Source of the DNA: Drouetiella hepatica Uher 2000/2452 | GTDB taxonomy: Bacteria; Cyanobacteriota; Cyanobacteriia; Elainellales; Elainellaceae | Assembly (NCBI GenBank): GCA_019359505.1 | Contig: JAHHHD010000011.1 | Coordinates: forward strand, 62,001-126,000 | Direction of reading: 5' to 3' | DNA length: 64,000 bases | Part shown: piece by piece, positions 9,331-62,901 of the stretch | Layout: each line of letters begins with the position of its first letter | Numbering within the stretch: the first letter of the stretch is position 1 | The notes under the pieces: model-generated | Seen by the model: the letters and a program-made list of their open reading frames with translations, nothing else | Databases searched by the model: none | What the model was told of the DNA's origin: nothing | Made by a program: the position numbers and the translations under genes

Positions 9331-9431
9331 AATGTGAGTTTGCTGTGTTTCGTTCTATTTTACAGCGACTATACCTATGGCAATCAAACAACTGGCAATC
9401 AGGCAACCGACAGTCAAGACAACTGACAGTC

Positions 9432-9530: not shown

Positions 9531-9540
9531 AACAGCGATA

Positions 9541-9561: not shown

Positions 9562-9606
9562 TGCTAGCAAACGTCAGATTTTAGTGAACTCTAGATCCGG
9601 CGCAAT

Positions 9607-13094: not shown

Positions 13095-16000
13095 ATGAAT
13101 CGATTTAATAGCGGGAGCAATGAGAGCGTGAGTCAGGACATACAAAAGCATCAAGAGAGGCATCAAGAAAGTCATCAAGACAATCAAGAATCAAGGGCAG
13201 GATTTGCAGGACAGCCTTGGTTGGTAGAAGAACGCGATGCTTGCGGCGTAGGTTTCATTGCCGACCTTCAGGGACGTGCCAGCCATAGCATTATTGCCAA
13301 AGCATTGCCTGCTCTTACCTGCATGGAGCATCGGGGTGGCTGTAGCGCCGATCGCGATTCTGGTGATGGCGCAGGCATCATGACCGCCGTACCCTGGGAT
13401 TTATTGAGCCATTGGCTACAGGCACAAGGCATTACGCCTCCCCCAGTTGAGCAGATGGGCGTGGGCATGATTTTCTTGCCTCAATCTGTAGAGGCAGCTG
13501 ACCTGTCTCGTAAGATTGTGGAAAATGTCCTGGCAGAGTCTAACCTAACAGTGCTGGGTTGGCGTAAGGTGCCTATCAAGCCCGAGGTGCTGGGTCTTCA
13601 GGCAAGAGAAAATCAGCCTCAGATTGAACAGGTCTTAGTGCATTCTGCCGAGGTGACTGGAGAGGCGCTGGAGCAGTTGCTCTACTGGAACCGCAAGCGG
13701 GTAAAATCAGCCGTGAGCGCCGCCCCTGAGAAGCTTTCTGGACTGCCAGATTTTTACGTCTGCTCTTTTTCGACCCGAACGATCGTTTACAAAGGCATGG
13801 TGCGATCGGAAATCCTAGGGCAGTTTTACGAAGACCTGATCAATCCGGCTTACACCAGCCCGTTTGTCATCTACCATCGCCGTTTCAGCACTAACACCAT
13901 GCCCAAGTGGCATTTGGCACAGCCGATGCGCTACCTGGGGCACAACGGCGAAATTAACACGCTGTTGGGCAACATCAACTGGATGCGGGCGCGAGAAGCC
14001 GATCTGGAGCTGCCCTTCTGGGGCGATCGCCTAGAAGATCTGAAGCCTGTAGTTAATGACCAGCTCAGCGATTCTGCCAACCTGGACAACGCCATGGAGC
14101 TTTTGGTGCATTCGGGTCGCAGTCCGCTAGAGGCGATGATGATTATGGTGCCGGAAGCCTATCTAAATCAGCCAGATTTGGCCGACCACCCCGAAATCGT
14201 AGATTTTTATGAATACTACAGCGGCATTCAGGAGCCTTGGGATGGCCCAGCGCTGCTAGTTTTTAGCGATGGCAAAATTGTGGGTTCCACGCTCGATCGC
14301 AACGGGCTACGTCCAGCTCGATACCTCATCACCCGTGACGGGCTGGTTGTCCTCGCTTCTGAGGCAGGTGTAGTCGATATTCCCGAAGAAGACATTATCG
14401 AGAAGGGACGGCTAGGTCCTGGACAAGCGATCGCCGTTGACTTGGAAAACCACGAAGTCTTGAAGAACTGGGAGATCAAGCAGCGCGTCGCCAGTGTCCG
14501 TCCCTATGGTCAGTGGCTGCAAGACAACCGCCAAACGCTGGAGCCGCAGCCCTACGCCGATGCCGCCCAGATGCCGCAAGACGTTCTGCTGCGCCAGCAA
14601 ACCGCCTTCGGCTACACCACCGAAGATGTGGAGATGATCATTGAAGACATGGCATCTCAGGGCAAAGAGCCAACTTTCTGCATGGGAGATGACATTCCTT
14701 TAGCGGTGCTGTCAGACAAGCCTCGGCTGCTATACGACTACTTCAAGCAGCGGTTTGCTCAGGTCACGAATCCGCCGATCGATCCTCTGCGCGAAAGCCT
14801 AGTAATGTCGCTAGTGACGCAGTTGGGCAAGCGGGGCAATTTGCTGGAGGCTAAACCGGAACATGCCCATTTGTTGAAGCTGCAAACGCCTGTGCTAAAC
14901 GATGGCGATCTGGAGCAGATTCGTCAGTCGGGCTTTGAAACGGCAGACCTATCGACGCTGTTTAGCATCGCAGAGGGTTCGATCGGGCTTCAGGAAGCCG
15001 TCAACAGCCTTTGTCAGGCGGCTACCGCAGCCGTGCGTGAAGGCAAGCAGGTGCTGATTTTGAGCGATCGCCTCAGCCTTACCCATGAGCCAACTGTACT
15101 CAGCACTGACCTCAGCTACATTCCGCCGATGCTGGCGGTGGGTGCAGTTCACCATCATCTAATTCGCCAGGGTCTACGGATGCGGGCTTCGATCGTCATT
15201 GACACCGCACAATGCTGGAGTACGCATCATTTCGCCTGTCTGCTAGGTTTTGGTGCTAGCGCCGTTTCGCCCTACCTCGCCTGGGAAACTGTGCGGCACT
15301 GGTGGGCAGACAACAAAACCCAGAGCATGATGGAGCGAGGCAAACTCGACAAGGTGAGCCTGACAGGAGCACAGTACAACTACCGCAAGGCCATTGAGGG
15401 TGGTCTGCTCAAGATCCTCTCGAAGATGGGCATCTCGCTGTTGTCGAGCTATCAGGGGGCACAGATTTTTGAGGCGATCGGCATTGGCACCGACCTGCTG
15501 AATCTGGCGTTCACAGGCACGGCATCCCGGTTGGGTGGTCTGAGCGTTACCGATCTGGCAAAGGAAGTGTTGATCCTGCACAGCCGCGCTTTTCCAGAAC
15601 TGGCGGCTCGGAAGCTGGAAAACTTTGGCTTTTTTAACTACAAGCCCGGTGGCGAACACCACATGAACAGCCCCGAAATGTCAAAGCTGTTGCACAAAGC
15701 GGTTGCCGACCAAAGCTTTGATCACTATGCGCTGTACCAGAAATACATGGAAGGTCGTCCCCTGACGGCGCTACGCGACCTGCTGGACTTGAAGAACGAT
15801 CGCCCTTCGATCCCGGTTGAGGAAGTCGAGCCTGTGGAAGAAATCGTCAAGCGTTTCTGTACAGGAGCCATGTCGCTGGGTTCGCTGTCCCGCGAGGCGC
15901 ATGAGACGCTGGCGGTGGCGATGAACCGTCTGGGCGGCAAGTCGAACTGCGGTGAGGGGGGTGAAGATCCGCTGCGCTATGTCCCGATCGACGATGTGGA

Positions 16001-17801
16001 ATCCGGACGTTCAGCCAAGTTTCCCCATCTCAAGGCGTTGCGAAACGGCGACACCGCTAACTCTGTGATCAAACAGGTGGCATCCGGTCGATTTGGGGTC
16101 ACGCCCGAATATCTCATGAGCGGCAAACAGCTCGAAATCAAGATGGCTCAGGGCGCAAAGCCCGGTGAAGGCGGTCAGCTTCCCGGCAAGAAGGTCAGTC
16201 CTTACATTGCTATGCTGCGTCGATCGAAACCGGGCGTGACGCTGATCTCACCGCCGCCCCATCACGACATCTACTCGATCGAAGACTTGGCACAACTCAT
16301 CTTTGATCTCCATCAGATCAATCCGGTGGCAAAAGTCTCGGTGAAGCTGGTGGCAGAGGTGGGTATTGGCACGATCGCTGCCGGGGTTGCCAAAGCCAAT
16401 GCCGACATCATCCAGATCTCTGGACATGACGGCGGCACAGGGGCATCTCCCCTTAGCTCGATCAAACATGCGGGTGTGCCTTGGGAGCTAGGCTTGACCG
16501 AAGTACATCGCGTTTTGATGGAAAACAAATTGCGCGATCGCGTCCTTCTCCGAGCCGATGGTGGCATGAAAACAGGTTGGGATGTCGTGATGGCGGCGCT
16601 AATGGGTGCAGAAGAATATGGCTTTGGCTCTGTGTCGATGATTGCAGAAGGCTGTATCATGGCGCGAATCTGCCACACCAACAACTGCCCAGTTGGCGTA
16701 GCCACTCAGCAGGAAAAACTGCGGCAGCGCTTTACCGGAACGCCGGAGCATGTGGTCAATTTCTTCTACTTTGTGGCGGAAGAGGTGCGATCGCTCCTGG
16801 CGCGGTTGGGCTACCGATCGCTGAAAGATATCGTTGGCAGAGCCGATCTGCTGAAGGAGCGGGAAGTCAAGATTGCCAAAACCCATTCCCTTAATCTGGA
16901 TTGCTTGACCCGTTTACCAGATACTCGCACAGATCGCTCCTGGCTAGAGCATCAGGAGGTTCATAGCAACGGCAATGTATTGGATGATGAGATTCTGGCA
17001 AATCCCATCATTCAGGCAGCGATTCAAGAGCAGGGTACCGCCGAACTTTCTGTAGCCATGGTCAATACCGATCGCTCTGTGGCGACCCGCGTGTCAGGCG
17101 CGATCGCCAAGACCTACGGAGACACTGGATTTGGCGGACACATCACCCTCAATTTTCAAGGTTCAGCAGGTCAGAGCTTTGGGGCATTTTTGCTGCCCTG
17201 CATGACGCTGACCCTAGAGGGCGAGGCAAATGATTACGTGGGTAAAGGGATGCACGGTGGCGAAATCATCATTCGTCCGTCTGTCCAAGTCACCTACGAT
17301 CCGGCAGAAAATGTCATCATCGGCAACACCTGTCTTTACGGCGCAACGGGGGGCACTCTGTTTGCTAGAGGGCAGGCTGGCGAGCGCTTTGCGGTACGCA
17401 ATTCCTTTGGCAAAGCGGTAATTGAGGGCACAGGTGATCACTGCTGCGAATACATGACGGGCGGTGTGATTGTGGTCTTAGGCAGAGCTGGACGCAACGT
17501 TGGCGCAGGCATGACGGGTGGTTTGGCGTACTTCCTCGACGAAGACGGCAGTTTCCCCACCAAAGTCAATCCTGAGATTGTCAAGGTACAGCGCGTCGTT
17601 GCGACAGCAGGTGAACAGCAGCTTCAGGAGCTAATCCAAGCTCATGCCCAGAAAACCGGAAGTGCCAAGGCTCAGCAGATTCTCGATTGCTGGTCGGAGT
17701 ATCTTCCCAAGTTTTGGCAGGTTGTACCGCCTTCGGAAGCTGAAAGCCCTGAGGCGAACCCCAATGTCTTGACAGAAAAGGTTCTGAGTTCAGTGCAGTA
17801 G
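13095..17801 (+). CDS. glsF: ferredoxin-dependent glutamate synthase (Fd-GOGAT)
   Basis: The 1568-residue enzyme makes two glutamates from glutamine and 2-oxoglutarate. An N-terminal Gln-rich tail (12-bp DNA repeats) precedes ERDACGVGF, where the Cys becomes the catalytic N-terminus of the amidotransferase domain after cleavage. The FMN domain follows ([36 protein letters not shown]). The three cysteines [15 protein letters not shown] bind the [3Fe-4S] cluster. The beta-helix domain is C-terminal ([19 protein letters not shown]). A loop of about 25 residues between [10 protein letters not shown] and [11 protein letters not shown], absent from NADPH-type GltB, points to ferredoxin as donor. 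ATG 13095 has no clear ribosome binding site. Confidence 0.96.
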
Positions 17802-17811
17802 AGTCTACACA

Positions 17812-17903
17812 TGTAGCAGCCGCTAGGTTTATTAGGACGGGGACATTTATAGTGGGGCGCGAAGCGCCCCACTATAAACCTGAGCAAACTGGCAACAGCC
17901 ATA
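17812..17903 (-). repeat. palindromic element A, copy 2
   Basis: It lies in inverted orientation ten bases after the glsF stop. A perfect stem of 11 bp or more (tagtggggcgc) closes on a GAA triloop. The outer arms match the A family with some changes at the left. Confidence 0.9.
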
Positions 17904-17904
17904 G

Positions 17905-17941
17905 ATCAAAAAAGGGAAGGCACCGCCTTCCCTTTTTTGAT
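17905..17941 (+). terminator. strong bidirectional terminator after glsF
   Basis: A perfect 17-bp inverted repeat with an A run on the left arm, a GC-rich inner stem (gggaaggc) and a T run on the right arm closes on ACC. This is the classic shape of an intrinsic terminator and would work on both strands. Confidence 0.9.
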
Positions 17942-17959
17942 CCAGAGAATTAAACCTAC

Positions 17960-18050
17960 TAGGACTTACGCATTTTTGTTGTGTGTGGTGGGCGCAGCCC
18001 ACCACACACAACAAAAATGCACTACAGCTAGAGGGCTTGCGTAAGTCCTA
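17960..18050. repeat. palindromic element C, copy 1
   Basis: Outer arms taggacttacgca and its inverted copy tgcgtaagtccta enclose a long perfect stem (about 25 bp, gttgtgtgtggtgggc inside) that closes on a GCA triloop. It ends two bases before the stop codon of the convergent small exported protein. Confidence 0.9.
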
Positions 18051-18051
18051 C

Positions 18052-18459
18052 CTACTTAATTACCTCTGCCGCTTTTTCCTTGAGGCTTCGGACACTTTCT
18101 TGAGCACCTACTGAGTACTCTTGTCCAAATTGATTGAACGCCTCTCCTGAATCTCGAATGATATTCTGAACGCGCTCATCTAGCGGTACGCCATCACGAG
18201 CTTCCTGTTCAAATTCCCCCGTTGTTTTGGGTCTTTCAGAATTGCGATCGGTTTCTCGAATTCGTTCACGCATCCGTTCACCCAAAGATTTGTCAGTCTG
18301 CATCTGACTACTATCAGACGCGCTTAAGGCTATAGGGCTAACAGGAGGTAAAGCATAAGCAGCGCTTGAGTAAGCACTCACAAATATGAGCGCAGCGGCT
18401 AAAACTACAGTCAGGCTGCGTCTTAACAAGGAATAGGTGCTGGAAATTAGATTTTTCAT
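18052..18459 (-). CDS. small exported hypothetical protein
   Basis: The 135-residue product begins MKNLISSTYSLLRRSLTVVL, a signal peptide with Arg residues and a hydrophobic core that ends near an AYALP site. The mature part is charged and helical (ERMRERIRETDRN, ERVQNIIRDSG, SVRSLKEKAAEVIK). I start at ATG 18459 because GGAG lies four bases upstream; a longer frame starts at 18492. It resembles in style the LEA-like exported protein at 35663-36100, but I see no clear homology. Location is probably periplasm or thylakoid lumen. Function is unknown. Confidence 0.7.
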   Translation of the reverse strand: MKNLISSTYSLLRRSLTVVLAAALIFVSAYSSAAYALPPVSPIALSASDSSQMQTDKSLGERMRERIRETDRNSERPKTTGEFEQEARDGVPLDERVQNIIRDSGEAFNQFGQEYSVGAQESVRSLKEKAAEVIK

Positions 18460-18609
18460 AGACTCCACTACTGGGTTGAGAGATAGGCTCATAGCTAAAA
18501 CATTGCAGTGGCAACCTAAGACTGAGATGCGTTCGGGTAGCCATTGCAGTCCGTTCCCACTACAGTCTTAAGGTAACTAAGACCTACTCCCTTACCCTCT
18601 AGCCAAAGT

Positions 18610-18703
18610 TATAGCTGTTGCCAGTTTGCTGAGGACATTTTGGGTGGGGCGCTTCGCGCCCCACCCAAAATGTCCTCAGCAAACCGCCTTGGCGGTTGCT
18701 ATA
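18610..18703 (+). repeat. palindromic element A, copy 3
   Basis: Terminal TATAGC and GCTATA are intact. The perfect core stem (cattttgggtggggcgc) closes on TTC, the complement of GAA. Its right end abuts element B copy 2. Confidence 0.92.
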
Positions 18704-18803
18704 TGGCATTACGTAATTGAGTTAGGACGAGTTATTTTTTGAGAGCCGCGCGGAGCGCGGCTCTCAAAAAATAACTCGTTGGATCTAAGCGCGTAGCGCT
18801 ATA
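18704..18803 (+). repeat. palindromic element B, copy 2
   Basis: The perfect stem gttattttttgagagccgcgc closes on a GGA triloop. It shares arms with the copies at 9432 and 42788, and follows element A copy 3 with no gap. Confidence 0.92.
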
Positions 18804-18825
18804 TATTCTGGCGGGTTAAAGACTT

Positions 18826-19251
18826 TCAATCGATCGGAATTTCGCGAATCGATTCACCCTCTCTAGAAAAATCTGTGCTGGCTGGCTGAAGATCATTCTC
18901 TCCGAACCAATCGTTGACTTTCTGCTTTGCCATGTCTTTTACGTCGGGCGTAATGCACATCGCCACTGCGCCCAAAGCCGTCACCAACGTGGCTAAATCG
19001 TCAGCATAGCCTGTGACTGGCACAAAGTCAGGTATAAGATCGGTAGGCAAAATGAAGTAAGCCAACGCGGAATAAATCACTGTTTTTGCCCACAGGGGAG
19101 TTTCGGGGCGCTGAGCCGCATAGAGCAGAATGAGCGCCTTCTCAATCACTTCTTTCCCCGCAATTTTGGCAAAATCCCTCAGTTTTTGCCAGAAACCCTG
19201 CTCTAGATCAGCTGCTGAATCTTGCCCTACCGAATCCGAAGTTTCCCTCAT
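18826..19251 (-). CDS. YkvA family (DUF1232) membrane protein
   Basis: The 141-residue protein carries the DUF1232/YkvA signature: a hydrophobic segment followed by YFILPTDLIPDFVPVTGYADD near residues 65-85 and a second hydrophobic segment LATLVTALGAVAMCI. The ILP.DLIPDF..G..DD pattern is diagnostic of the family. The biochemical role of the family is unknown. Start is ATG 19251. The stop is close to a B element. Confidence 0.9.
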   Translation of the reverse strand: MRETSDSVGQDSAADLEQGFWQKLRDFAKIAGKEVIEKALILLYAAQRPETPLWAKTVIYSALAYFILPTDLIPDFVPVTGYADDLATLVTALGAVAMCITPDVKDMAKQKVNDWFGENDLQPASTDFSREGESIREIPID

Positions 19252-19390
19252 CTCGCTCCCATCCCTTTGCTTTCGATTAATTGGGCAGTCCTGGTAAAGT
19301 TGCTAACCCTCAACCTGACCACTTGACCCAATTTAGCCTGTAGCCCAGAGGATCAAAGCTTGCTGAAAGCAGGGATTTTACGAATGCAGG

Positions 19391-19435
19391 AATACGGATT
19401 TCAGATCACCTAGATTTCAGATCACCTAGATTTCA
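19391..19435. repeat. 16-bp direct repeat, nearly three units
   Basis: The unit gatttcagatcaccta occurs twice and a third partial copy (gatttcagatgacc) follows. It lies in the spacer downstream of a minus-strand gene. No dyad is seen. Confidence 0.85.
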
Positions 19436-19450
19436 GATGACCCAGAGCTT

Positions 19451-19882
19451 CTAGCTAGAGCGATCGCGCGAAAATTCAACCGAGTAGCGCTGTCCATCTA
19501 GCAAACCCTTACCGCTAATCTTGTCTGGATTAGCATCTGCGTAGGTAATGCTTAAGATCCCAGAGGCATCGGCGTTGCCCGAACTCTCTACCTGAAGCCT
19601 GCTGTTTTGTCCTTCTAGCAAACGTCCACCCAGCGTTATGCTCCGTCCGTCTTCTAGAAGCAGCACTAGCGTCCGGTTAGACTCACTTCCATATTGGTAG
19701 GAAATACTGGTAATGCGAGCCGCCGATCGCCCTTCCAACAAAAACGTGCCGCTGCCGCGCACCGTATCGGCAGCAGCAGGTTGCACCATTACCACTAAGG
19801 GAGCGATCGCTGCCACTCCCATAAACGCCATTGATGCTAGCCCGTCAAACCCTGCCCAGTCTTGCTTGCGTCCCATATTCAT
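19451..19882 (-). CDS. small exported hypothetical protein, beta-rich
   Basis: A 143-residue protein with a signal-like hydrophobic stretch (SMAFMGVAAIAPLVVMVQPAAA) and a probable cleavage site after AAA near residue 38. The mature part looks all-beta (GSGTFLLEGRSAARITSISYQ, LVLLLEDGRSITLGGRLLEG). It has no cysteine or catalytic motif. Start is ATG 19882, with a second in-frame ATG two codons on. It lies downstream of the ABC transporter pair on the same strand with a spacing of 54 bp, so it could be co-transcribed. Function is unknown. Confidence 0.75.
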   Translation of the reverse strand: MNMGRKQDWAGFDGLASMAFMGVAAIAPLVVMVQPAAADTVRGSGTFLLEGRSAARITSISYQYGSESNRTLVLLLEDGRSITLGGRLLEGQNSRLQVESSGNADASGILSITYADANPDKISGKGLLDGQRYSVEFSRDRSS

Positions 19883-42701: not shown

Positions 42702-43066
42702 CGGCTCAGTTCATGAGCTTTCCTGTGAGAGATTTAATTGGCGATCGCCGAGTCTTACAGCAACTTAATAAGCAGTATTACCTAATGTAGAGCATTAAGT
42801 AATTGAGTTAGGACGAGTTATTTTTGAGAGCCTCGCGGAGCGAGGCTCTCAAAAAATAACTCATTGGATCTAAGCGCGTGGCGCTATATGATGTGCATCT
42901 TCCTATAGATTTTTAGGCTGCTTAGGTTGTCGGCTGATTGGGGCAGTCATTTAAGATGAATGCTGAGGAAAGAGTCACAGTGAAGATAGAAGCCTTCGCT
43001 ACGGGCAGTAAAAAATTGATAGGCGATCGCTTGCGAACTTAGTCCAATTCTTCTTTAGATAGTTTT
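42702..43066. other. 365-bp spacer upstream of the metal exporter
   Basis: It holds element B copy 3 and the exporter promoter. No gene is seen. Confidence 0.6.
42788..42888 (+). repeat. palindromic element B, copy 3
   Basis: Same arms as the other two B copies. The stem reads gagagcctcgc and closes on GGA. At one base pair it has T-A where the other copies have G-C, with both arms changed. Confidence 0.92.
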
Positions 43067-52425: not shown

Positions 52426-53787
52426 TCAATAGTCTCGCCCTTTGATCTGCGCCAATTCTTCTGCGGCTAATACCTCATCCTCCGAGTAATAGCCTGAAGC
52501 TTTTTTAGCTTCGATCTCCACTTGTGCATCGGCAGGAACCAGCTCTGGCGGAATGGCGATCCGCTGCACCACCTCAATTCCGGCATGGGTGATGGCGTTG
52601 TATTTCATGTTGCTCATGGAGACAAGGCGATCGATCCGCGTAATTCCTAGCCAGTGCAGCATGTCCGGCATCAGCTCTTGAAAGCGCATGTCCTGAACTC
52701 CGGCAACGCACTCGGTACGGGTAAAATAGGCATCGGCGCGATCGCCTCCCTCCTGACGTTTGCGGGCGTTGTAGACCAAGAACTTTGTCACTTCACCCAA
52801 AGCCCGACCCTCTTTGCGACAATAGACAATCACGCCTGCGCCACCTTCTTGTGCTGTCTGAATACAAACCTCGATACCGTGAACGAGATAAGGACGACAG
52901 GTGCAGATATCAGAGCCGAATACATCCGAGCCATTGCATTCGTCATGCACCCGTACCGCCAAAGGTTTCGTGGGATCGACGATCGCTTTCTCATCGCCAA
53001 TAATATAAATGGTTGAACCGCCGATCGGTGGCAGGAACACATGAAGATCGGGTCGCGTCACCAGTTCGGGGAACATACCGCCTGTTTGCTGAAACAGAAC
53101 GCGCCGCAAATCTGTTTCCTCGATGTTTAACCGTTTAGCAATGCCAGGAAGATACCAAACGGGATCGATCGCCGCCTTCGTCACCAACAAATTGCCATCT
53201 GACTTCAGCAGCTTGCCGTCCACCGTGATGCGACCTTGGGCGACAGCCTCTTTTAGCTCTGGGAGGTTGATGTGGGCTTTGGTGATGGCGATGGTCGGCA
53301 GAATGTCGTATCCCTCTGACTCATAGTCTGTGAAAACATTGCCAGCAAAAGCCCCAAACGGATCGAGTGAGACAATTTTATCCGGATCGCTCCAGCTTGG
53401 GTAAGGCCCAATCTGCACAGGGGGCGATGTATTGGTGAGATCGGCTTTGTGGGTGGGATCAAGATCGCCGCTTGCTACCGCCAGGGCACGATAGACACCA
53501 TACGATCCGGCATGGGTGCCTATGACGTTCCGATGTTGCAGATTGCGGATTGAGCCAATGATGGGGCCGCGATCGCTCGGATTTTCTGCACCCCAATGGA
53601 TAGGAACGGCTTTGCCCCGATGCTGATGGGAAGTGAGGATAATATGCTTGGGTTTAGCTGCTTTAGAATTGCCCTGAGTTGAATTTTCTGAGGCTAAATT
53701 TTCTGAGGCTAAATTTTCTGGGATTAAATTGCCTGTAGCCAAATTGCCTTGAGTCAAATTGCTTTCAATCAAGTTATCTTCAGTCAT
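52426..53787 (-). CDS. GTP cyclohydrolase II homologue, URC1 type
   Basis: The 453-residue protein has a C-terminal GTP cyclohydrolase II domain (residues about 225-430) with HDECNGSDVFGSDICTCRPYL in place of the canonical ECLTGD..CDCG zinc motif. A long N-terminal region reads HIILTSHQHRGKAVPIHWGA and SLDPFGAF. This architecture fits the URC1 group, tied in yeast to uracil catabolism, rather than riboflavin RibA. The usual partner URC4 (DUF1688) is not in the window. The extreme N-terminus is a five-residue NLASE-type repeat. Start ATG 53787. Confidence 0.85.
   Translation of the reverse strand: MTEDNLIESNLTQGNLATGNLIPENLASENLASENSTQGNSKAAKPKHIILTSHQHRGKAVPIHWGAENPSDRGPIIGSIRNLQHRNVIGTHAGSYGVYRALAVASGDLDPTHKADLTNTSPPVQIGPYPSWSDPDKIVSLDPFGAFAGNVFTDYESEGYDILPTIAITKAHINLPELKEAVAQGRITVDGKLLKSDGNLLVTKAAIDPVWYLPGIAKRLNIEETDLRRVLFQQTGGMFPELVTRPDLHVFLPPIGGSTIYIIGDEKAIVDPTKPLAVRVHDECNGSDVFGSDICTCRPYLVHGIEVCIQTAQEGGAGVIVYCRKEGRALGEVTKFLVYNARKRQEGGDRADAYFTRTECVAGVQDMRFQELMPDMLHWLGITRIDRLVSMSNMKYNAITHAGIEVVQRIAIPPELVPADAQVEIEAKKASGYYSEDEVLAAEELAQIKGRDY
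53667..53786. repeat. eight 15-bp tandem units at the start of a gene
   Basis: Eight 15-bp units like aattttctgaggcta encode the five-residue repeats at the N-terminus of the GTP cyclohydrolase II homologue, from its second codon. Two are identical. Confidence 0.92.
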
Positions 53788-53906
53788 GGTTCAGTAGTTA
53801 CACCCGTAAAGCGATGGAGCGATCGACTTCGTGAGCCGACTATAGGCTTTCATGAGTCTCAATATTCTCATTAGTCTAAGCTTCTTCAGTCGGTTCTGGT
53901 TAGCCT

Positions 53907-55883
53907 CTACCAGCTCAACTGCAAGCCTTGATCAATTAAATACTGCTGGAGGTTTGGCATAAGCTTTTTTGAAATAATATCTGCGGCAGACATTTCTTCG
54001 GGTGCCTTGGTTATCAGCCATCCAGAAGTTGCCCCTGCTGCGGCTCCAATGCCCCACTCGCTGTAGTGAGTTCGCGTCACAGCGTTAACAATATGGCTGA
54101 CGGCAATGCTTTTTCCCCCAATTAATAGATTTCTGACTCCCTGAGGAATCAGGCTTTCCAAAGGAATCTGTAAGGGTCGAATCTCATACTCTGAAGCATG
54201 GGCGCTAGTGGCTTCCCCAGAGGGCTGCCAGTTGCGGTAGCGACAGCCGTGCATATCAACGTCATAGTGGGCAAGGGCGATCGCTGTTTCACTAAAGTCT
54301 CGTCCACCGGGTAAATCGAGCCGCAGATCCGCCTCGCGGAGCATGAAAGCAGGCTGACCGTAGGCTTGCCGTCCCATAATCCGCCGTCCTTCTCGAATGT
54401 AGGGAGTCATGCTGAGTCCTGAAGCAGTGCCCATTGGCGTGTCTGCACCCGAAAGATAGGTCAGCGGCAAATCAGCTTCCTCTAAGTCAGCTTGCTGTAG
54501 CAGCCAGCGGGCAAACAGCAGCGCGTGTTCTTCGGCGTGTTTGAGGGCAATGACTGACAATCCGCCCAGCCAGTTGTGCTGCTGTCCGGCAGCTTTCACG
54601 TTTTTGGAATTCAGAATCAGCGGATGGGTCATCAAATTCCAATCATTGCCCTGTGTCCAGTTGATCGCCGTCATATCGCCCATATCAGGCATTGACCAAA
54701 AAGGATCATTTCGAGTGGTGCTAACGATGCGACGATAGTTGAATAAGCTTCGCCCTGCAAACATTGGCGTTCCATCAAGCGAATAAGCCTGTAAATGCTC
54801 ATGCAGCGGGAACTCCGGCTCGAACTGTGCCAGTGCCGCCAGACTTTTGCCGCGATCGTCATGTAGTGCCAGTACGAAGGGGAAGGTAAACGCCTGAGTG
54901 CAGTCGGGGTTATCTCGCTCAGCGGCGTGGGCTTCGCCCGATGTTGTTTTGGCTTCTGATCCCAACCGATGCGGAATGCTTGCCCAGCCGACTAGCTCTC
55001 CGGTGTCAGTGGCATCAATCACCATTAGCCGCTTGCCGGGTGGTGCTTCTAGCCGCAGGGGAAATTTCTCAAACTCAGCGTCAGCAGACCAGGAATACCA
55101 GCTTGCAATTTCTTGGGAGAGTCTGCCTTTGGATTGAACAGCTTCGGGCTGAGTAGAAGGATGATGCACACGACGCACGGCGTAGATGGCGGTAATTTCT
55201 TGCCCTGTGGTATCAAACTCAGCGCCTTTGAAAGCGATCGCCGTTCCCCATCGACTTCCTGAGGCTTTAGCTTTGGCAGACTGTAACAACGCTTCTGCCG
55301 CATTCGCTCCTGCCTCTGGAGGAAAACATAGCCGTCCCACCCAGCAGCTATTCAGCTCGGCAACCTGAGTCTCAGGCGATAGATTTGCCCAAGCAGGTAG
55401 CTGCACTTTCTGAGACTGAATCAGCTGTTTGAAATCGCTCCAGCTTTGAGAAAACCGCTGTTCTGCGATCATGGTGTGCGATTCATCTAGAGCAGAAACC
55501 CCTTGAGAACTAATCTGTCCCCCCAGCCAAGGAGTTAGCTCAATTAGGCAAGTAATAGCGCCAGACTGCATGGCGTGAAATGCCGCCGCCACGCCGCCCA
55601 GAGAGCCACCCACCACCACCACCTCACAGTTCCATACCTCTTGGGCAGGAGGCAACGGATCGAGCTGAGGTCTGCCGTTGGAGATAAGCTGAACTGCGTC
55701 TGGCGATCGCCCAGCCCCAAAAGATTCTACCTGGGTGGTTTCTACTGGGGCGGTTTGCACCTGAAAGCCAGCCAGCAGAGCGGTAAAGCCCCCAGATGCA
55801 AAGCAAAGACTAACGATCGCCAGCAGCAAAAATCGCACCCCCCAACGGATTCCCCGTTGAGGCAAAAACAAGCGTCGTTTCAT
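53907..55883 (-). CDS. exported FAD-dependent oxidoreductase
   Basis: The 658-residue protein has an N-terminal membrane or signal segment (VRFLLLAIVSLCFASGGF) and a FAD-binding dinucleotide fold: CEVVVVGGSLGGVAAAFHAM, then LIELTPWLGGQISSQGVSALD. The FAD-dependent oxidoreductase family (PF12831) fits this order. A second cofactor region is MVIDATDTGELVGWASIP, and NLLIGGKSIAVSHIVNAVTR is near the end. The substrate is unknown. I start at ATG 55883; GTG 55892 is in frame. An A element follows upstream of it on the map, between this gene and the zinc ATPase. Confidence 0.9.
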   Translation of the reverse strand: MKRRLFLPQRGIRWGVRFLLLAIVSLCFASGGFTALLAGFQVQTAPVETTQVESFGAGRSPDAVQLISNGRPQLDPLPPAQEVWNCEVVVVGGSLGGVAAAFHAMQSGAITCLIELTPWLGGQISSQGVSALDESHTMIAEQRFSQSWSDFKQLIQSQKVQLPAWANLSPETQVAELNSCWVGRLCFPPEAGANAAEALLQSAKAKASGSRWGTAIAFKGAEFDTTGQEITAIYAVRRVHHPSTQPEAVQSKGRLSQEIASWYSWSADAEFEKFPLRLEAPPGKRLMVIDATDTGELVGWASIPHRLGSEAKTTSGEAHAAERDNPDCTQAFTFPFVLALHDDRGKSLAALAQFEPEFPLHEHLQAYSLDGTPMFAGRSLFNYRRIVSTTRNDPFWSMPDMGDMTAINWTQGNDWNLMTHPLILNSKNVKAAGQQHNWLGGLSVIALKHAEEHALLFARWLLQQADLEEADLPLTYLSGADTPMGTASGLSMTPYIREGRRIMGRQAYGQPAFMLREADLRLDLPGGRDFSETAIALAHYDVDMHGCRYRNWQPSGEATSAHASEYEIRPLQIPLESLIPQGVRNLLIGGKSIAVSHIVNAVTRTHYSEWGIGAAAGATSGWLITKAPEEMSAADIISKKLMPNLQQYLIDQGLQLSW

Positions 55884-55989
55884 ACCCAGCACACCACAAA
55901 TCGAGCGGAACTTAGTTAGCGCAACTCAGTTTTAACTCAACTTGGTTCTACAGCAACTCAGTTTTGACTTGACCCAGTCCTGTAGTTTT

Positions 55990-56084
55990 TATAGCCATCG
56001 CCAGTTTGCTTAAGACATTTTGGGTGGGGCGCGAAGCGTCCCACCCAAAATGTCCCCGTCCTAACCGCCTCGGCGGTTGCCATA
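55990..56084 (+). repeat. palindromic element A, copy 6, overlapping a gene end
   Basis: Intact TATAGC at left and GCCATA at right. The stem cattttgggtggggcgc closes on GAA with one mismatch. Its right 24 bases encode the last seven residues and the stop codon of the zinc ATPase on the minus strand. Confidence 0.93.
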
Positions 56085-58283
56085 CTTCATCACCCTAGTC
56101 GCGTTCAGAATCGCCAATAGCGCCACACCCACATCGGCAAATACAGCTTCCCATAGGGTGGCAACCCCCAGAATGCCCAGAATAATAAATGCTGCCTTGA
56201 CCACGAGGGCAAGAGTAATATTTTGCCAGACGATCGCGTGAGTTCTGCGAGCAATCTGAATTGCCTCAGCAACCTTGGAGGGATCATCGGTCATCAGCAC
56301 CACGTCAGCCGTTTCGATCGCCGCATCTGATCCTAGCCCTCCCATCGCTATACCCACATCGGCTCTGGCAATCACTGGAGCGTCATTAATGCCGTCTCCC
56401 ACAAAGGCAACCTTGCCCTTTTTGCCAACCGTTTGCAGCAGCTTTTCCACGGCAGCAACCTTATCTTCTGGCAATAGCTCTGCCTCAAACGCATCAACTT
56501 CTAGCCTATGCGCCACCCGTTGCGCCACTGCCTGCGAATCTCCTGTCAGCATCACGACTTTCTCCACGCCCAGCGCTTTGAGCGATCGGATCGCCTCCAT
56601 TGCACCGGGCTTTGGCTCATCCGCAATCAGAATATAGCCCCCATAGCGGCGATCGATCGCCAGATGCACCACGGTGCCTTCTACGTCACAGGTGTTGTGG
56701 TCAATTTTTTCTCGGTGCATGAGGCGATCGTTTCCTGCCAGCACCTCACGGTTTTCTACCTTTGCCTGAATGCCGTGCGCCGTAATTTCGGCGTAGTCTG
56801 TAACCCTTGACTCATCCATAGGCTTGCCGTATGCCGCTCGAATCGATTGGGCGATCGGGTGGTTGGAGTTGGCTTCGGCAATTGCCGCCCAGCGCAGCAG
56901 TTCATCAGGGGTAAACCCGTTGTGGGGGACTATTTCACAGACTTTGAATATGCCCTGGGTGAGGGTACCTGTTTTATCAAAGGCGATCGCTTTGACTGCC
57001 GCCAAGCTGTCCAGGAAAGTAGAGCCTTTCACTAAAATGCCGCGTTTTGCAGCGCCGCCAATGCCGCCAAAATAACCCAAGGGAATACTGATCACCAGTC
57101 CACAAGGGCAAGAAATTACCAGCAGCACCAAGGCGCGATAGACCCAGTCAGCAGGACTTGCACCTGGAATGAATATCGGCGGCAGTAGCGCCACGGCTAG
57201 AGACAAAATGACAACGATCGGCGTGTAGCGTTGGGCAAAGCGGGTGATAAATTTCTGGGTTTCAGCTTTCTTGCTGCTGGCGTTTTGCACCAGATCGAGA
57301 ATCCGGGCGATCGACGATTCACCAAAAAGTTTTGTCACCCTCAGGGTGAGAACACCAGACTGATTAATCATGCCTGCCAGCACAGTTTCTCCAACGCGAA
57401 CGGTGCGCGGCACAGATTCACCTGTAAGCGCTGAAGTATCAACCTGAGAATTCCCCTCCAGAATTTCTCCATCTAGCGGAACTTTCTCACCAGGTTTGAC
57501 GAGGATCAGGTCGCCGATTTTCACTGCTTCAGGAGAGACAACCTGGATGCCATCTGCCGTTTTAAGATTGGCAGAGTCAGGGCGAACTTCTAGAAGCGCT
57601 GAAATAGAGCGTCGGGAATTGCTGACTGCCGCATTCTGAAACGTTTCACCAACTTTAAAGAACAGCATGACTCCCACTGCCTCCGGGAGCTGGTGAATGG
57701 CGATCGCCCCTAAAGTAGCAATGCTCATCAAAAAGTTCTCGTCAAACACCTGCCCTTTGAGAATATTGCGACCTGCGATCGTCAGTACGCCCCAGCCACT
57801 CAGCAGGTAAGCCGAGATAAAAACCGCATATTCAGCGATCGAGAAGGGGGTATTGTGCAGAGATTTTTCAAAAAAAGAACCCAGAATGAAAAGCGTTGCG
57901 ACAACGCCAATCAATAGCCCTTCTCTCTTTAAGCTAAATTCACCGTCACCGTGGCTATGCCCATGTTCTTCGTGATTGTGATCATGTTCACCCTCACAGC
58001 CGTCATGCGGATGGGCGTGACTGTGAGGCTGCTCAGAGGTGTGCAGGGTCAGCTTTGGGGTAACGATTGTATAGCCCAACGCAATCAGGCAGTTGTCGAT
58101 CGCCGCTTCGTCAATTTGTTGTGGATCGTAAGATACGGTCAGATGTCCAGTCGCAACATCAGCAGCAGCCTCAGCAATCCCCGTCAACTTTTGTAGAGCA
58201 GCCTCAATTTTCATCTCGCAGCTTGGGCAGTCCATGCCGCCGACCTGCATTCGTCGTGTTATGAAGGACGGGGAGTTGACCAT
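56061..58283 (-). CDS. ziaA: zinc-exporting P1B-type ATPase, ZiaA-like
   Basis: ATP-driven zinc export. The 740-residue protein has an N-terminal HMA domain (GGMDCPSCEMKIEAAL), a His-rich linker (HSHAHPHDGCEGEHDHNHEE) and eight membrane helices with the CPC ion site in helix 6 (VISCPCGLVIS). The phosphorylated Asp is residue 436 in DKTGTLTQ. The hinge is GDGINDAP and the C-terminal helices have AIVWQNITLAL. The sequence matches Synechocystis ZiaA closely by memory. The last residues YGNRRGG come from a repeat element. A SmtB/ZiaR-type operator lies 62 bases upstream of the ATG. Start ATG 58283. Confidence 0.93.
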   Translation of the reverse strand: MVNSPSFITRRMQVGGMDCPSCEMKIEAALQKLTGIAEAAADVATGHLTVSYDPQQIDEAAIDNCLIALGYTIVTPKLTLHTSEQPHSHAHPHDGCEGEHDHNHEEHGHSHGDGEFSLKREGLLIGVVATLFILGSFFEKSLHNTPFSIAEYAVFISAYLLSGWGVLTIAGRNILKGQVFDENFLMSIATLGAIAIHQLPEAVGVMLFFKVGETFQNAAVSNSRRSISALLEVRPDSANLKTADGIQVVSPEAVKIGDLILVKPGEKVPLDGEILEGNSQVDTSALTGESVPRTVRVGETVLAGMINQSGVLTLRVTKLFGESSIARILDLVQNASSKKAETQKFITRFAQRYTPIVVILSLAVALLPPIFIPGASPADWVYRALVLLVISCPCGLVISIPLGYFGGIGGAAKRGILVKGSTFLDSLAAVKAIAFDKTGTLTQGIFKVCEIVPHNGFTPDELLRWAAIAEANSNHPIAQSIRAAYGKPMDESRVTDYAEITAHGIQAKVENREVLAGNDRLMHREKIDHNTCDVEGTVVHLAIDRRYGGYILIADEPKPGAMEAIRSLKALGVEKVVMLTGDSQAVAQRVAHRLEVDAFEAELLPEDKVAAVEKLLQTVGKKGKVAFVGDGINDAPVIARADVGIAMGGLGSDAAIETADVVLMTDDPSKVAEAIQIARRTHAIVWQNITLALVVKAAFIILGILGVATLWEAVFADVGVALLAILNATRVMKYGNRRGG

Positions 58284-58344
58284 AGCAGCTTCAAAAGATG
58301 ATTCAAAGAGAATTTCAGCACCTTAACATCATATTGGAAATATG

Positions 58345-58358
58345 TGAATATATGTTCA
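58345..58358 (-). promoter_or_regulatory. SmtB/ZiaR-type operator of the zinc ATPase
   Basis: TGAATATATGTTCA is a 6-2-6 inverted repeat of the form bound by SmtB and ZiaR. It lies 62 bases upstream of the ziaA start in an AT-rich promoter region. Zinc binding would release the repressor. The regulator gene is not adjacent. Confidence 0.75.
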
Positions 58359-58446
58359 TATATGAGTAATTTTTACCGTAGTAAGGCTGGCAGTTCTCAT
58401 TAGGGATTTTTATGTCGGGGAATTCGCGCTCTGCGGACGCAAACTC

Positions 58447-58505
58447 CCCCCAACAAAGCCTGAAAAAAGCTCGCCGCAGGCGAGCTTTTTTCAGGCTTTG
58501 TTGGG
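58447..58505. repeat. palindrome G, perfect 28-bp stem
   Basis: A perfect 28-bp inverted repeat (ccccaacaaagcctg arm with an A/T run) closes on GCA. Its flank gtatttgggtaaggactaccc recurs in degenerate form near 1534-1555. It could terminate transcription in both directions. Confidence 0.9.
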
Positions 58506-58901
58506 GTATTTGGGTAAGGACTACCCAGGCTTTGTTTCAAAATGAGAGCAGTTGCAGTGAGGCTTATTGCTTTGACAAAGTTTCTGAAAAGCCATCTCAA
58601 TGTAGATTTCTCAAAAAGTAAACAGTAATAAGCAATTTTTTGAATGAAAAGTCTTCCGATTTGGCGATTTATGTGACTCGATCGAATAGACAACCCCCGC
58701 ATTCTGAGACGCAGATGGCAGAATAGGGGAATAGTCATACAGTTGCGTAGCCGTTCTATGTCAGGTTCAGATCACCCTTAAACCGACGAGAACCCTGATT
58801 GAATGCAGTTTCGAGATCTAGATGCAAGCTAGATGAGCTACATTAATAAATATTAAGAAACTGAAAGACTTCGCATCAGAAATTTAGGAGGAAAGACCTC
58901 G

Positions 58902-60743
58902 GTGAATAACAAACGGTGGAGAAATGCAGGGCTGTACGCTCTTTTAGTGGTCGTTGTCATTTTCTTGGCAACGGCACTACTCGATCGTCAGCCGACTAAT
59001 GCAACCTCATGGCGCTATAGCCAGTTTGTCAGTCAGGTACAGAGCGGTCAGGTAGAAAAGGTTAGCATCAGCGCCGATCGCACCCGTGCGACTGCCAAAA
59101 CTAGCAGTGGTGAAACGGTGCTAGTCAACCTGCCCAATGATCCAGAAATGCTGAACATTCTGCAAAAGAATGGCGTAGATATTTCTGTTTCTCCACAGGC
59201 AGAGGAAAATATCTGGGCGCGAGTTCTGAGTACGCTGCTAATTCCGTTCCTGCTGCTGGTGGTGCTGTTTTTTGTGCTGCGTCGCGCTCAGGGTGGTCCT
59301 GGCAGTCAGGCAATGAATTTCGGCAAGTCTAAGGCACGGGTACAGATGGAGCCGCAGACCCAGGTAACTTTTGGGGATGTTGCTGGCATTGAGCAAGCCA
59401 AGCTTGAGCTAGCTGAAGTTGTAGACTTTTTGAAGAATGCCGATCGCTTCACTGCCGTCGGAGCCAAAATTCCCAAAGGCGTTCTGCTAGTTGGTCCTCC
59501 GGGTACAGGTAAAACCCTGTTGGCAAAAGCTGTTGCTGGTGAAGCGGGCGTGCCCTTCTTCTCTATCTCTGGCTCTGAATTTGTGGAAATGTTTGTGGGC
59601 GTGGGCGCATCCCGCGTTCGCGACCTGTTTGAACAAGCCAAAGCCAACGCACCCTGTATCGTCTTTATCGATGAAATTGATGCGGTCGGTCGCCAGCGTG
59701 GTGCAGGTCTGGGCGGCGGTAATGATGAGCGCGAACAAACCCTCAACCAGCTCTTGACCGAAATGGACGGCTTCGAGGGCAACACAGGCATTATCATCAT
59801 TGCGGCAACCAACCGTCCTGATGTCTTGGATGCGGCGCTGCTGCGACCCGGTCGTTTCGATCGCCAGGTGGTGGTCGATCGCCCCGACTTTGCTGGACGA
59901 CTGGAGATCCTCAACGTTCACGCCCGTGGCAAAACGCTGTCGCAGGACGTAGACCTAGAGAAAATTGCCCGACGCACTCCTGGGTTTACGGGAGCTGACC
60001 TGGCAAACTTGCTGAACGAGGCGGCAATTTTGGCGGCTCGTCGTAACCTGACCGAAATCTCAATGGACGAAGTCAATGATGCGATCGATCGCGTCCTTGC
60101 TGGGCCAGAGAAGAAAGATCGCGTCATGAGCGAGAAGCGCAAGACTCTGGTGGCTTACCACGAGGCAGGTCACGCGCTGGTAGGTGCGCTGATGCCTGAT
60201 TATGATCCAGTGCAAAAGATCAGCATCATCCCACGCGGTCGTGCTGGGGGGTTGACCTGGTTTACGCCAAGCGAAGATCGCATGGACTCTGGGCTGTATT
60301 CCCGCTCATATCTGCAAAACCAAATGGCGGTCGCTCTGGGCGGTCGTTTGGCAGAAGAGATCATCTTTGGGGAAGAAGAAGTCACAACGGGTGCTTCCAA
60401 TGACCTTCAGCAGGTGGCGCGCGTTGCCCGTCAGATGGTGACTCGATTTGGCATGAGCGATCGCCTTGGCCCTGTAGCTTTGGGTCGTGCCCAAGGCGGC
60501 ATGTTCTTGGGACGCGATATCATGGCAGAACGCGATTTCTCCGAAGAAACGGCGGCAGCGATCGATGACGAAGTTCGTAATCTGGTAGAACAGGCTTACC
60601 GCCGTGCCAAGTCGGTACTGCTAGAAAACCACGCTATTCTCGACAAGTTGGCAGCTATGCTAATTGAGCGCGAAACTGTGGACGCTGAAGAGCTTCAAGA
60701 TCTGTTGGCAACCAACAGCGTCAAGATTGCGTCGATCGCTTAG
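58902..60743 (+). CDS. ftsH: ATP-dependent zinc metalloprotease FtsH (FtsH3-like)
   Basis: FtsH degrades damaged and unassembled membrane and soluble proteins. The 613-residue protein has two membrane helices (residues 9-25 and about 110-130), an AAA domain ([26 protein letters not shown]) and a zinc protease site HEAGHAL near residue 426. The opening [18 protein letters not shown] is close to the Synechocystis FtsH3 type, which pairs with FtsH1 or FtsH4. GTG 58902 is supported by AGGAGG upstream. A terminator follows. Confidence 0.96.
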
Positions 60744-60767
60744 GCTCTGCTTCAGGTGAATTTGGGT

Positions 60768-60807
60768 GGGGAGGAGGTGCGATCGATTGCGCCTCCTCCC
60801 CATTTTT
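60768..60807 (+). terminator. terminator of ftsH
   Basis: A 13-bp stem (ggggaggagg..gc, one mismatch) with loop gatcgatt is followed by attttt. It lies 24 bases past the ftsH stop. Confidence 0.88.
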
Positions 60808-60866
60808 ATGGCTATTAGGATTTTTCTATAGCTATCAAGCGCTAGCTGTCAGCAGAACGATTCGCC

Positions 60867-61553
60867 ATGACACCCCCCATTGTTAGCCCTTCAGCTTCGA
60901 TCATTCATTCACCGGATTCCTGGCTGTCTGCCGTCCGATCGCAGCGGGTAATTGCCGTGATCCGTTCTCCTAATCTAGAGTTAGGCGTTCAGATGGCGCA
61001 GTCTATGGCGGCAGCAGGACTGAGATTAATCGAGATTACCTGGGATAGCGATCGCCCCGTTGAGCTAATCACCACACTCCGGGCAATCCTACCCCACTGC
61101 TGGATTGGAGCAGGGACACTGCTAACTCTGACAGACTTGCAGACGGCGATCGCGGCAGGGGCGCAATTTTTGTTCAGCCCTCACCTCAACTTAGCCCTCG
61201 TTGAAGCTGCGGTGAGCCAATATGTTCCCATCGTTCCCGGTGCCCTCACCCCCAGCGAAATTGTGGCGGCATGGCAGAGTGGCGCGACCTGCGTCAAGGT
61301 ATTTCCGGTACAGTCTATGGGCGGTGCCGACTATATTCGCCATTTACGATCGCCGCTAGGACAAATTCCTTTGATTCCCACCGGGGGCGTGACGCTAGCA
61401 AACGCGCCAGAATTTTTGCAGGCTGGAGCGATCGCAGTAGGCTTATCCAGTCAGCTGTTTCCTAGAGAGGCGATCGTCACTGGCAAATGGGCAGAGATTA
61501 CTAGCCGAGCAGCAGGACTTCTGCAATCCCTTCAAGCAGATCCTCTGGCGTAA
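60867..61553 (+). CDS. eda: KDPG/KHG aldolase (Eda)
   Basis: Eda splits 2-keto-3-deoxy-6-phosphogluconate into pyruvate and glyceraldehyde-3-phosphate in the Entner-Doudoroff route. The 228-residue TIM-barrel protein has RVIAVIRSPN, the catalytic Glu in RLIEITWDS, GAGTLLTLTD and Schiff-base Lys in TCVKVFPVQSMGG, followed by LIPTGGVTLANAPEFL. About 18 extra residues precede the usual start. It follows ftsH by 123 bp and has its own spacer. Start ATG 60867. Confidence 0.93.
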   Translation: MTPPIVSPSASIIHSPDSWLSAVRSQRVIAVIRSPNLELGVQMAQSMAAAGLRLIEITWDSDRPVELITTLRAILPHCWIGAGTLLTLTDLQTAIAAGAQFLFSPHLNLALVEAAVSQYVPIVPGALTPSEIVAAWQSGATCVKVFPVQSMGGADYIRHLRSPLGQIPLIPTGGVTLANAPEFLQAGAIAVGLSSQLFPREAIVTGKWAEITSRAAGLLQSLQADPLA

Positions 61554-61572
61554 GCGTCCAGTTTTGCAAAAT

Positions 61573-61639
61573 GCGGTTAGGACGGGGACATTTTTGGTGG
61601 GGCGTGAAGCGCCCCACCAAAAATATCCTAAGCAAACTT
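61573..61639 (-). repeat. palindromic element A, copy 7, truncated
   Basis: The core stem acatttttggtggggcg closes on GAA and inner flanks match the A family, but both outer ends (TATAGC side) are missing. Confidence 0.85.
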
Positions 61640-61661
61640 AGTAGATCGCAAAGCTTACACT

Positions 61662-61737
61662 TGATCCCCCCAACCCCTTTAAAGAGGAGGCTTCAGAACT
61701 CAAAGTCCCCCTTGTTAAAGGGGATTTAGAGGGATCA
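61662..61737. repeat. imperfect palindrome F, CCCCTTTAAA type
   Basis: Arms tgatccccccaacccctttaa and ttaaaggggatttagaggga form an imperfect inverted repeat around agagg...aact. Similar CCCCTTTAA-type dispersed repeats are common in cyanobacteria. It adjoins element A copy 7. Confidence 0.65.
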
Positions 61738-61787
61738 GATACTTCAGAAATCGGTGGGTGCTTCAGAAAAAAGGGCTGCACATCGCA

Positions 61788-62270
61788 TTATTTGTCAGCT
61801 GTGTGCCGACTGTCTTTGCGGGGCGGTTGCTGAAAGGCGGCAACGAGAAGGCAAAAAATGCCGATATTGATAAAAACATCCGCCAAATTAAACACCGCAA
61901 AGCGAATTATCCGAAGATCCAGAAAATCAACGACCTGCCCGGCTGTAAAGCGATCGATGCCATTTCCCAATGCCCCTGCCAAAACGCAGCCATAGCCCAC
62001 CTGTTCCAACCGGTTCATGCGAGTGCGCCAAGCTAACAAAATCAGTCCTGCGCTAACAATTAGTGACAGCCAGCGCAGCCATTCACCCCTTTCGCTAAAT
62101 AGGCTAAAAGCCGCCCCTTTATTGACCACATAGGTAAAATGGAAGACCCCTGGAATCAGCGCTAGCGTCTCCCCAATCTGAAAATTTTGAACGATCGCAA
62201 ACTTGCTGAGCTGATCCAAGACCAGCCCTACTGCGGCAGTAACCCAAAATAAGCGATTTTTCAAATTCAT
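61788..62270 (-). CDS. lspA: prolipoprotein signal peptidase LspA
   Basis: LspA cleaves signal peptides from lipoproteins at the membrane. The 160-residue protein has four membrane helices. The two catalytic Asp are in GALGNGIDR and VFNLADVFIN, and NKGAAFS is present. It follows bioY on the same strand. Start ATG 62270. Confidence 0.96.
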   Translation of the reverse strand: MNLKNRLFWVTAAVGLVLDQLSKFAIVQNFQIGETLALIPGVFHFTYVVNKGAAFSLFSERGEWLRWLSLIVSAGLILLAWRTRMNRLEQVGYGCVLAGALGNGIDRFTAGQVVDFLDLRIIRFAVFNLADVFINIGIFCLLVAAFQQPPRKDSRHTADK

Positions 62271-62325
62271 AGGTTATGGGGCGATCGGGTCACGCTCTTT
62301 CCAAAAACATTTTTAGCAGCCATTA

Positions 62326-62901
62326 CTAATAAAACATTAAACGGCGCAAACCGAAGGCAAGCACTGCCACCGCACACACGATCGCCATCTGCCCAGCAAG
62401 CGGATTGAGAGAATAGGTGACGATCGCCTGAAGCACAGAGACTTGCCCCGCCCAGTGAAAATAATCTGCTGTCAGCAAATAGCCAATGCCCACTAGATGA
62501 ATAGTGAGTAGCCCACCCAAACAGCTCAAGGCTAAGTGTTCTAGCCGCACGGGCAGCCAAAAAGCCAGCAATCCACAGATCCATGCCCCTGGAATAAACC
62601 CCAACAAATAGCCAAAGCTTGGACGATGTACGTAGTCTAAGCCGCCGCCGTGGGTGAACACGTTGAACCAGGAAGTTAACCCTAGCAGCAGGTAGGCAAC
62701 CTGGGAGATCACTGCCGCGTTTTTGCCGCCTAGGCATCCCACCAGCAGCACAGCCCCAATCTGGCAACTCACACCCAAAGAATAGGCGGGTGCTTGCCCC
62801 CAAAGGCTAAAGGGACTGGCGATAAAAGCTTCAAGCAGGGTGCCACCAATGGTCAGAATCAAGCCAACGATCGCCCAGAGCAGTTGGGTGGGAGCAGTCA
62901 C
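62326..62901 (-). CDS. bioY: biotin transporter substrate-binding subunit BioY
   Basis: BioY is the biotin-binding S component of an ECF transporter. The protein is hydrophobic with about six membrane helices and has LTIGGTLLEAF, NVFTHGGGLDYVHRPSFGYLLGF, the last segment being the BioY signature. I start at GTG 62901, giving MTAPTQLLWAIVGL; the frame extends to TTG 62961. It lies 55 bp from lspA and is probably co-transcribed, a common cyanobacterial pairing. The ECF ATPases are not in this window. Confidence 0.93.
   Translation of the reverse strand: MTAPTQLLWAIVGLILTIGGTLLEAFIASPFSLWGQAPAYSLGVSCQIGAVLLVGCLGGKNAAVISQVAYLLLGLTSWFNVFTHGGGLDYVHRPSFGYLLGFIPGAWICGLLAFWLPVRLEHLALSCLGGLLTIHLVGIGYLLTADYFHWAGQVSVLQAIVTYSLNPLAGQMAIVCAVAVLAFGLRRLMFY

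Follow-up and report, generated by a model that had tools for sequence, protein, structure and literature searches.

Location of the ATPase gene and its repeat-encoded end

The window analysed here is a stretch of 64,000 nucleotides from contig JAHHHD010000011.1 of Drouetiella hepatica Uher 2000/2452. On its minus strand, at 56061..58283, lies an ORF of 740 aa that encodes a ZiaA/ZntA-like heavy-metal P1B-type ATPase with HMA, E1-E2 ATPase and HAD hydrolase domains (PF00403, PF00122 and PF00702, respectively). In profile searches, the ORF matched TIGR01525 (E 8.6e-168) and TIGR01512 (E 2.3e-163) and scored above the cut-offs of the heavy-metal P-type subfamilies, while its scores against the ZntA equivalog models were below the cut-offs of those models. 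The label ZiaA and the zinc specificity are those of an earlier, sequence-only reading of this DNA; the profile matches themselves place it among heavy-metal P-type ATPases of the Cd/Zn type. The next gene downstream encodes a FAD-dependent oxidoreductase-like protein (53907..55892, minus strand; PF12831) and is read in the same direction, and the gene order is the same in G002, a genome of the same genus. A long inverted repeat (CCAACAAAGCCTGAAAAAAGCTCGCC...GGCGAGCTTTTTTCAGGCTTTGTTGG) was observed at 58450-58504; it lies upstream of the ATPase gene, between this gene and an ORF at 58902 that we take from its sequence to be FtsH-like.

At its 3' end the ATPase gene runs into a 95-bp repeat, copy 6 of element A (55990..56084), which has the ends TATAGC and GCCATA and lies on the plus strand if the consensus is oriented so that the AACCGCC arm is on the right. 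The minus strand from 56090 to 56061 reads ATG AAG TAT GGC AAC CGC CGA GGC GGT TAG, which translates to M K Y G N R R G G and a stop. The ATPase therefore ends in ...LNATRVMK/YGNRRGG, where the slash marks the border between host and element. The final host codons are ATG AAG (56085..56090, minus strand); the 24 nt that follow (56061..56084, minus strand), comprising the last eight codons, belong to the right arm of the element and contain a small palindrome, AACCGCC/GGCGGTT (56063..56078, minus strand). The sequence-only reading had assigned YGNRRGG and the stop to the right arm of copy 6. This was borne out, with correct coordinates and with the codons read on the minus strand. Of the positions that it had given, 56061-56090, the part 56061..56084 is repeat-encoded and the ATG AAG at 56085..56090 is host sequence. 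Beyond the TAG, after a further 6 nt, begins the core hairpin of the element (56013..56055, minus strand), which in the consensus has a 20-bp stem and a 3-nt loop and which is not followed by a T-run.

Structure and family of element A

Seven copies or part-copies of element A are present in the window, at 8667, 17814, 18610, 30799, 36163 and 55990, with a partial one at 61570. The modal length was 95 bp, found in 46 of 65 copies, and the consensus ends are TATAGC...GCTATA. These ends pair as terminal inverted repeats, although the outer stem is imperfect and only 25 of 46 copies pair at its column 4/92. The element is of MITE size and has no capacity to encode a transposase. It is dispersed at high copy number, and counterpart sites that lack it were found in G002 and G003, some of them with flanks that align poorly. 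Collectively, these features fit a small, non-coding, palindromic mobile repeat that is MITE-like. Pairing in the core stem has been maintained through paired change: across 36 copies, changes on both sides were found in 13 of the 26 pairs of a structure that we had chosen ourselves, 98.3 percent of the cells pair and none of 500 shuffles equalled this. In two copies (L024:2477-2516 and L213 near 701-741), the core hairpin is gone and both ends are kept, as if the stem had been deleted.

Membership of an Rfam family was rejected, since the five Rfam matches near the site were all below gathering scores; only a tRNA elsewhere in the window reached its gathering score. Target-site duplications of 4-13 bp were not in excess over shuffled partners in 65 copies, and the outer TA could not be distinguished from the element ends. 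Near-repeats of 8-12 bp that flank five copies (L013, L023, L187, L214 and L218) were considered as longer target duplications and resemble host repeats or chance matches. The window also contains a second family of hairpin repeats (GTAATTNAGYTAGGACRAGTTATTTTTGAGAGCC...GGCTCTCAAAAA), seen as long, very similar copies at 9434-9530, 18706-18804 and 42791-42889; one of these starts directly beside an element A copy with its end at 18703.

Abundance and spread of element A

Allowing up to 3 mismatches, a search with the right-arm pattern gave 250 matches genome-wide (107 forward and 143 reverse), compared to 0 and 1 for a backwards control. In the window, GGCAACCGCCGAGGCGGTT with up to 3 mismatches gave 4 matches against 0.01 expected. 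The link between the tail and the repeat is thus real and far above chance. For the analyses of individual copies, 130 distinct full-length copies were collected from the stretches of this genome that were covered, which were chosen for a good match to the right-arm pattern or to a covariance model rather than at random. When up to 105 candidates per genome were scored with the covariance model, there were at least 105 matches in this genome and, within the same genus, 13 in G002, 27 in G003 and 0 in G001. A match with an E-value of 1e-4 or better was found in 12 of 40 genomes, this genome included. Outside the genus, the best matches were weaker yet sometimes many (104 of the 105 scored in G038, 74 in G010 and 24 in G020), and related hairpins therefore occur more widely. 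The matches in G038 and G010, which belong to other genera (L348 and L349), suggest related hairpin families elsewhere in the class. A plasmid collection gave no match for the 106 bases around the window copy. In one open-licence literature library, no description of the repeat family was found; searches there with short strings of the arm sequence listed unrelated matches, and two 16-base strings were absent among those listed. Element A is apparently an undescribed cyanobacterial repeat family.

Most relatives without the element stop at the element border

In G002, the site is syntenic on both sides and carries no element. The orthologous ATPase ends in LNATRVMK, encoded by a final ATG AAA that is followed directly by TGA. 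It is 90 percent identical to the ORF of the window over residues 331-734; the G002 sequence is partial, its 5' part being lost at a contig edge, and the G002 genome is 72 percent complete. The flanks differ, with TGAGCGCCATAAAG in G002 and the element end TGGCTATAAAA in the window, and cannot be aligned base for base, which is not a perfect match to a simple insertion. Right after the ATPase stop on this G002 contig (C479, L235), short tandem units (CTGCAATAGAACCAAT-like) precede the next gene; the same interval in the window holds the element and a diverged stretch. The empty-site comparison of the window with the genus covered positions 1-19500 and 53000-62500 and so part of the copies.

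We then compared the ATPase C-terminus across 17 aligned orthologues (L032-L044, L046 and L051-L053; identity of at least 57 percent, with paralogue-like sequences at 38-39 percent left out and L057 giving no aligned sequence), among which at least two pairs come from one genome each (G022, G025, G047). Eleven of the 17 stop at the identical codon and the other six continue with other short tails; YGNRRGG was found in none of the 17. A set of 10 named cyanobacterial loci gave nine aligned sequences (L080 had none), all of which stop at that codon and lack the tail; one of these loci, L063, shares a contig with L036 of the orthologue set. A relative that lacked the element and still ended in YGNRRGG would speak against a repeat-derived tail, and there was none among the 17 orthologues or the nine named loci, the syntenic G002 protein ending in ATRVMK. 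The sequence-only reading had left it open whether the element replaced or extended the native C-terminus. Since the native stop codon marks the start of the element and the relatives stop right at the lysine, the native C-terminus was extended by seven residues and not replaced. By sequence comparison, then, the tail is repeat sequence, the relatives have neither repeat nor tail, and their stop codon stands where the repeat starts.

The same tail on other proteins

To 16 of the ORFs of at least 80 codons, one of the 130 copies contributes the stop codon. Four of these ORFs share a single reading frame through the right arm: the ATPase ORF, RsmD (identified by TIGR00095), a GltX-like ORF and an ORF of 145 aa. 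RsmD ends in ...SPLL/YSNRQGG. In G003, RsmD ends in ...DSSPP at the codon where the element begins. The C-termini of RsmD vary, and among 16 other aligned sequences only that of G003 clearly matches in stop position, that of G001 ending far later; the tail was absent from all 16 (L330, L333 and L335 gave no aligned sequence). The 486-aa ORF of L233, which we take from its sequence to be the glutamyl-tRNA synthetase GltX, ends in ...SQGS/HGNPQGG. In the relatives, GltX stops at the codon where the element starts, G002 ending in SQVN and G003 in SMGS, and neither genome has the element or the tail at this site (L414 gave no aligned sequence in this comparison). The 145-aa ORF ends in ...EEE/HRNRQGG, and its G002 counterpart ends in EDYQ, by eye one codon past the start of the element.

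In another seven ORFs, the stop is a TAG or TAA located 2 nt inside an element end. At L229 (15925-16013), a copy closes the ORF of a GAF-GGDEF diguanylate cyclase, which ends in ...RDRVQVM, its TAG lying 2 nt within the element. The copy may have truncated this protein rather than extended it, because the aligned G003 sequence differs, by eye, after RDRV.

Stop codons inside the element and its position relative to genes

Both ends of element A carry stop codons close to the border. The first stop was at offset 21 in frame 0 in 104 of 130 right ends and 89 of 130 left ends, and at offset 2 in frame 2 in 73 right ends and 79 left ends of the same 130 copies; the right end of the window copy, TATGGC, is not among the offset-2 stops. 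The third frame is open across the whole element in 95 copies read from the right and 107 read from the left. In most copies, both ends thus encode seven codons followed by a stop, typically YSNRQGG or YSCRQFA. The repeat does not always end translation, since an ORF of 220 codons reads through one copy (L210).

The copies are not spread evenly around genes. Using ORFs of at least 150 codons and the first ATG, GTG or TTG as the start, 94 gene 3' sides were found within 300 bp of copies, of which 25 lie 0-15 bp past the stop and 10 more have their stop inside the copy (35 in total). Among 93 gene 5' sides within 300 bp, only two were at 0-15 bp; 16 count as overlapping the element, which stems at least in part from ORF starts set too far upstream. 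None of the 130 copies lies inside an ORF of at least 150 codons with 60 bp or more of the ORF on both sides. Either target choice or purifying selection could account for the bias towards 3' ends.

The TA at the far element end (55990..55991) and the TA at 56083..56084 may represent a 2-bp target duplication. When the window copy was removed in silico and one TA was kept, the sequence became ATG AAG TAA, an immediate stop at the position where the relatives have theirs, with either choice of outer dinucleotide. For RsmD and GltX, one of the two possible outer dinucleotides likewise left an immediate TAA on removal. Among the seven ORFs that stop at offset 21, removal gave an immediate TAA in five and not in the other two, and two of the five are short (81 and 96 codons) and have no relatives shown. 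A restored TAA is weak evidence on its own, because 38 of 65 copies have A or G directly after the right end, and TA plus such a base is often a stop by chance. TAA as the target is not proven either, since the relatives use TGA (G002 at the ATPase, G002 and G003 at GltX) and the original stop of this strain is not seen. The right flanks of the 65 copies are skewed, with C at +2 in 32 and T at +3 in 33 (56085-56087 at the window copy), which could reflect a target preference or a longer element end.

A model for the origin of the tail

In the model that we favour, element A would have entered the zinc ATPase gene at its stop codon, and a ribosome reaching the lost stop would read seven repeat codons (YGNRRGG) and halt on the TAG of the repeat. 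The target may have been the TA of a TAA stop codon, duplicated over 2 bp. An insertion with such a duplication in a TAA or TAG stop would always set the frame Y-S/G-N-R-Q-G-G-stop, with the tail codon TAT starting with the outer TA. Insertions of this kind would persist because the repeat brings its own stops beside both ends, and the tail is probably tolerated rather than useful. As a whole, the insertion of a MITE-like repeat at the ATPase stop codon, adding seven residues and a stop, is very probably the best explanation of the locus.

An extended version of this model is that the repeat has adapted to land on stop codons, in that it targets the TA of TAA or TAG and retains a TAG 21 nt in from either end; we regard this as rather unlikely. 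The same reading would include the second TAG, 2 nt inside the element and in another frame, so that the ends would have evolved as replacement gene 3' ends, and we give this part no better chance. If the adaptation were real, an insertion on a stop codon would cost the host only seven extra residues.

Alternative explanations for the hairpin and the tail

One alternative takes up the replacement of the native C-terminus, which the sequence-only reading had offered beside extension, together with the terminator proposed there, and has the hairpin serve the ATPase gene as a Rho-independent terminator. The 20-bp stem with conserved pairing past the stop would suit such a role, and the RNA fold at the site is stable (z -4.0, with none of 200 shuffles as stable). 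A canonical terminator requires a T-run. None (at least 5 T in the 8 nt past the stem) was found at fixed offsets in any of the 260 copy orientations, and a terminator scan of the site returned 0 terminator-like sites, a result that is weak alone as shuffles averaged only 0.5. The identity as an intrinsic terminator was rejected because the stem lacks the T-run that directly follows the G+C-rich stem of such terminators. The stem also begins just 6 nt from the stop codon, and in E. coli a terminator few base pairs past a gene was reported to be almost fully repressed by ribosomes (PMC4824070). With the relatives pointing to extension of the protein, replacement together with termination is unlikely, and the terminator claim is not upheld. 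The hairpin would be at most a 3' mRNA structure and not an ordinary terminator; a putative role in 3' stability is possible.

The element might instead have been present at the site in the common ancestor with G002 and then been deleted in G002, which would make the tail older than the split. A CCATA-like sequence past the G002 stop at both the ATPase and the GltX sites might be what is left of an element end, but the resemblance covers only about five bases. Across the class, 11 of 17 orthologues lack the tail and stop at that very codon, and at GltX G003, too, has neither element nor tail. Taken together, this makes ancestral presence very unlikely. That the basic YGNRRGG is useful and was co-opted, for instance as a cytosolic charge cluster or a degradation tag, would explain why the same type of tail recurs on the ATPase, RsmD, the GltX-like ORF and the 145-aa ORF and why the right-end stop at offset 21 is retained in 104 of 130 copies, but it is the most improbable of these alternatives, since these proteins have no common function and conservation of the arm is expected from the repeat itself, the arm being a palindrome and its frame being conserved in untranslated copies as well.

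Comparison with known systems

Insertion of the repeat at the stop codon, the reading preferred here, would provide a comparative example of how mobile repeats can give proteins C-terminal residues without breaking them, including an rRNA methyltransferase and an apparent tRNA synthetase. If the targeting of stop codons is real, a very abundant repeat could spread through a gene-dense genome with little harm. For annotation, C-terminal tails of the type xGNRQGG or xSNRQGG can be repeat-derived in this group.

Element A shares features with several known repeats. REPs tagged with GTAG or CGTC, including the cyanobacterial GTAG-15/16, are likewise high-copy palindromes that are mostly extragenic, and the passages on their structure give stems of 5-13 bp (GTAG) or 8-9 bp (CGTC) (PMC3733652). 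Element A does not qualify as a REP of either type, as it has a 20-bp core stem inside 95 bp, compared to 20-40 bp for a REP with a stem of 5-13 bp. Intragenic cases are treated in a MITE review (PMC10969869), whose section on Rickettsia palindromic elements describes repeats of about 150 bp that lie in frame inside ORFs and are translated within host proteins. Element A resembles these in being a palindromic repeat that is translated as part of a host protein; unlike them, none of its 130 copies interrupts an ORF in the interior as defined above.

The closest parallels are repeats at gene ends. In the account of RU-1 at the end of the Erwinia carotovora amidase gene (ECA3499), the normal stop is lost and 35 residues are added (Delihas 2007; PMC2759123). 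In both cases a short mobile repeat removes a stop and adds residues beyond the conserved domain, but RU-1 is 127 bp long, has another sequence and adds 35 residues, whereas element A adds seven, at the stop itself and on several proteins. In Coxiella burnetii, copies of QMITE1 and QMITE2 reach 1-50 bp into the C-terminal ends of functional genes, and one of them makes a protein 33 residues longer (PMC5896051). Element A likewise overlaps the C-terminal ends of functional genes; its sequence and host are unrelated, and the passages on QMITE (PMC5896051) do not mention conserved stops at both ends. Repeats that supply C-terminal codons are thus already in print for enterobacteria and Coxiella, and the present case is a known kind of event in an apparently undescribed repeat family. 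Compared to the published cases, it is less usual that several unrelated proteins share the same kind of seven-residue tail, added at the stop codon or directly beside it.
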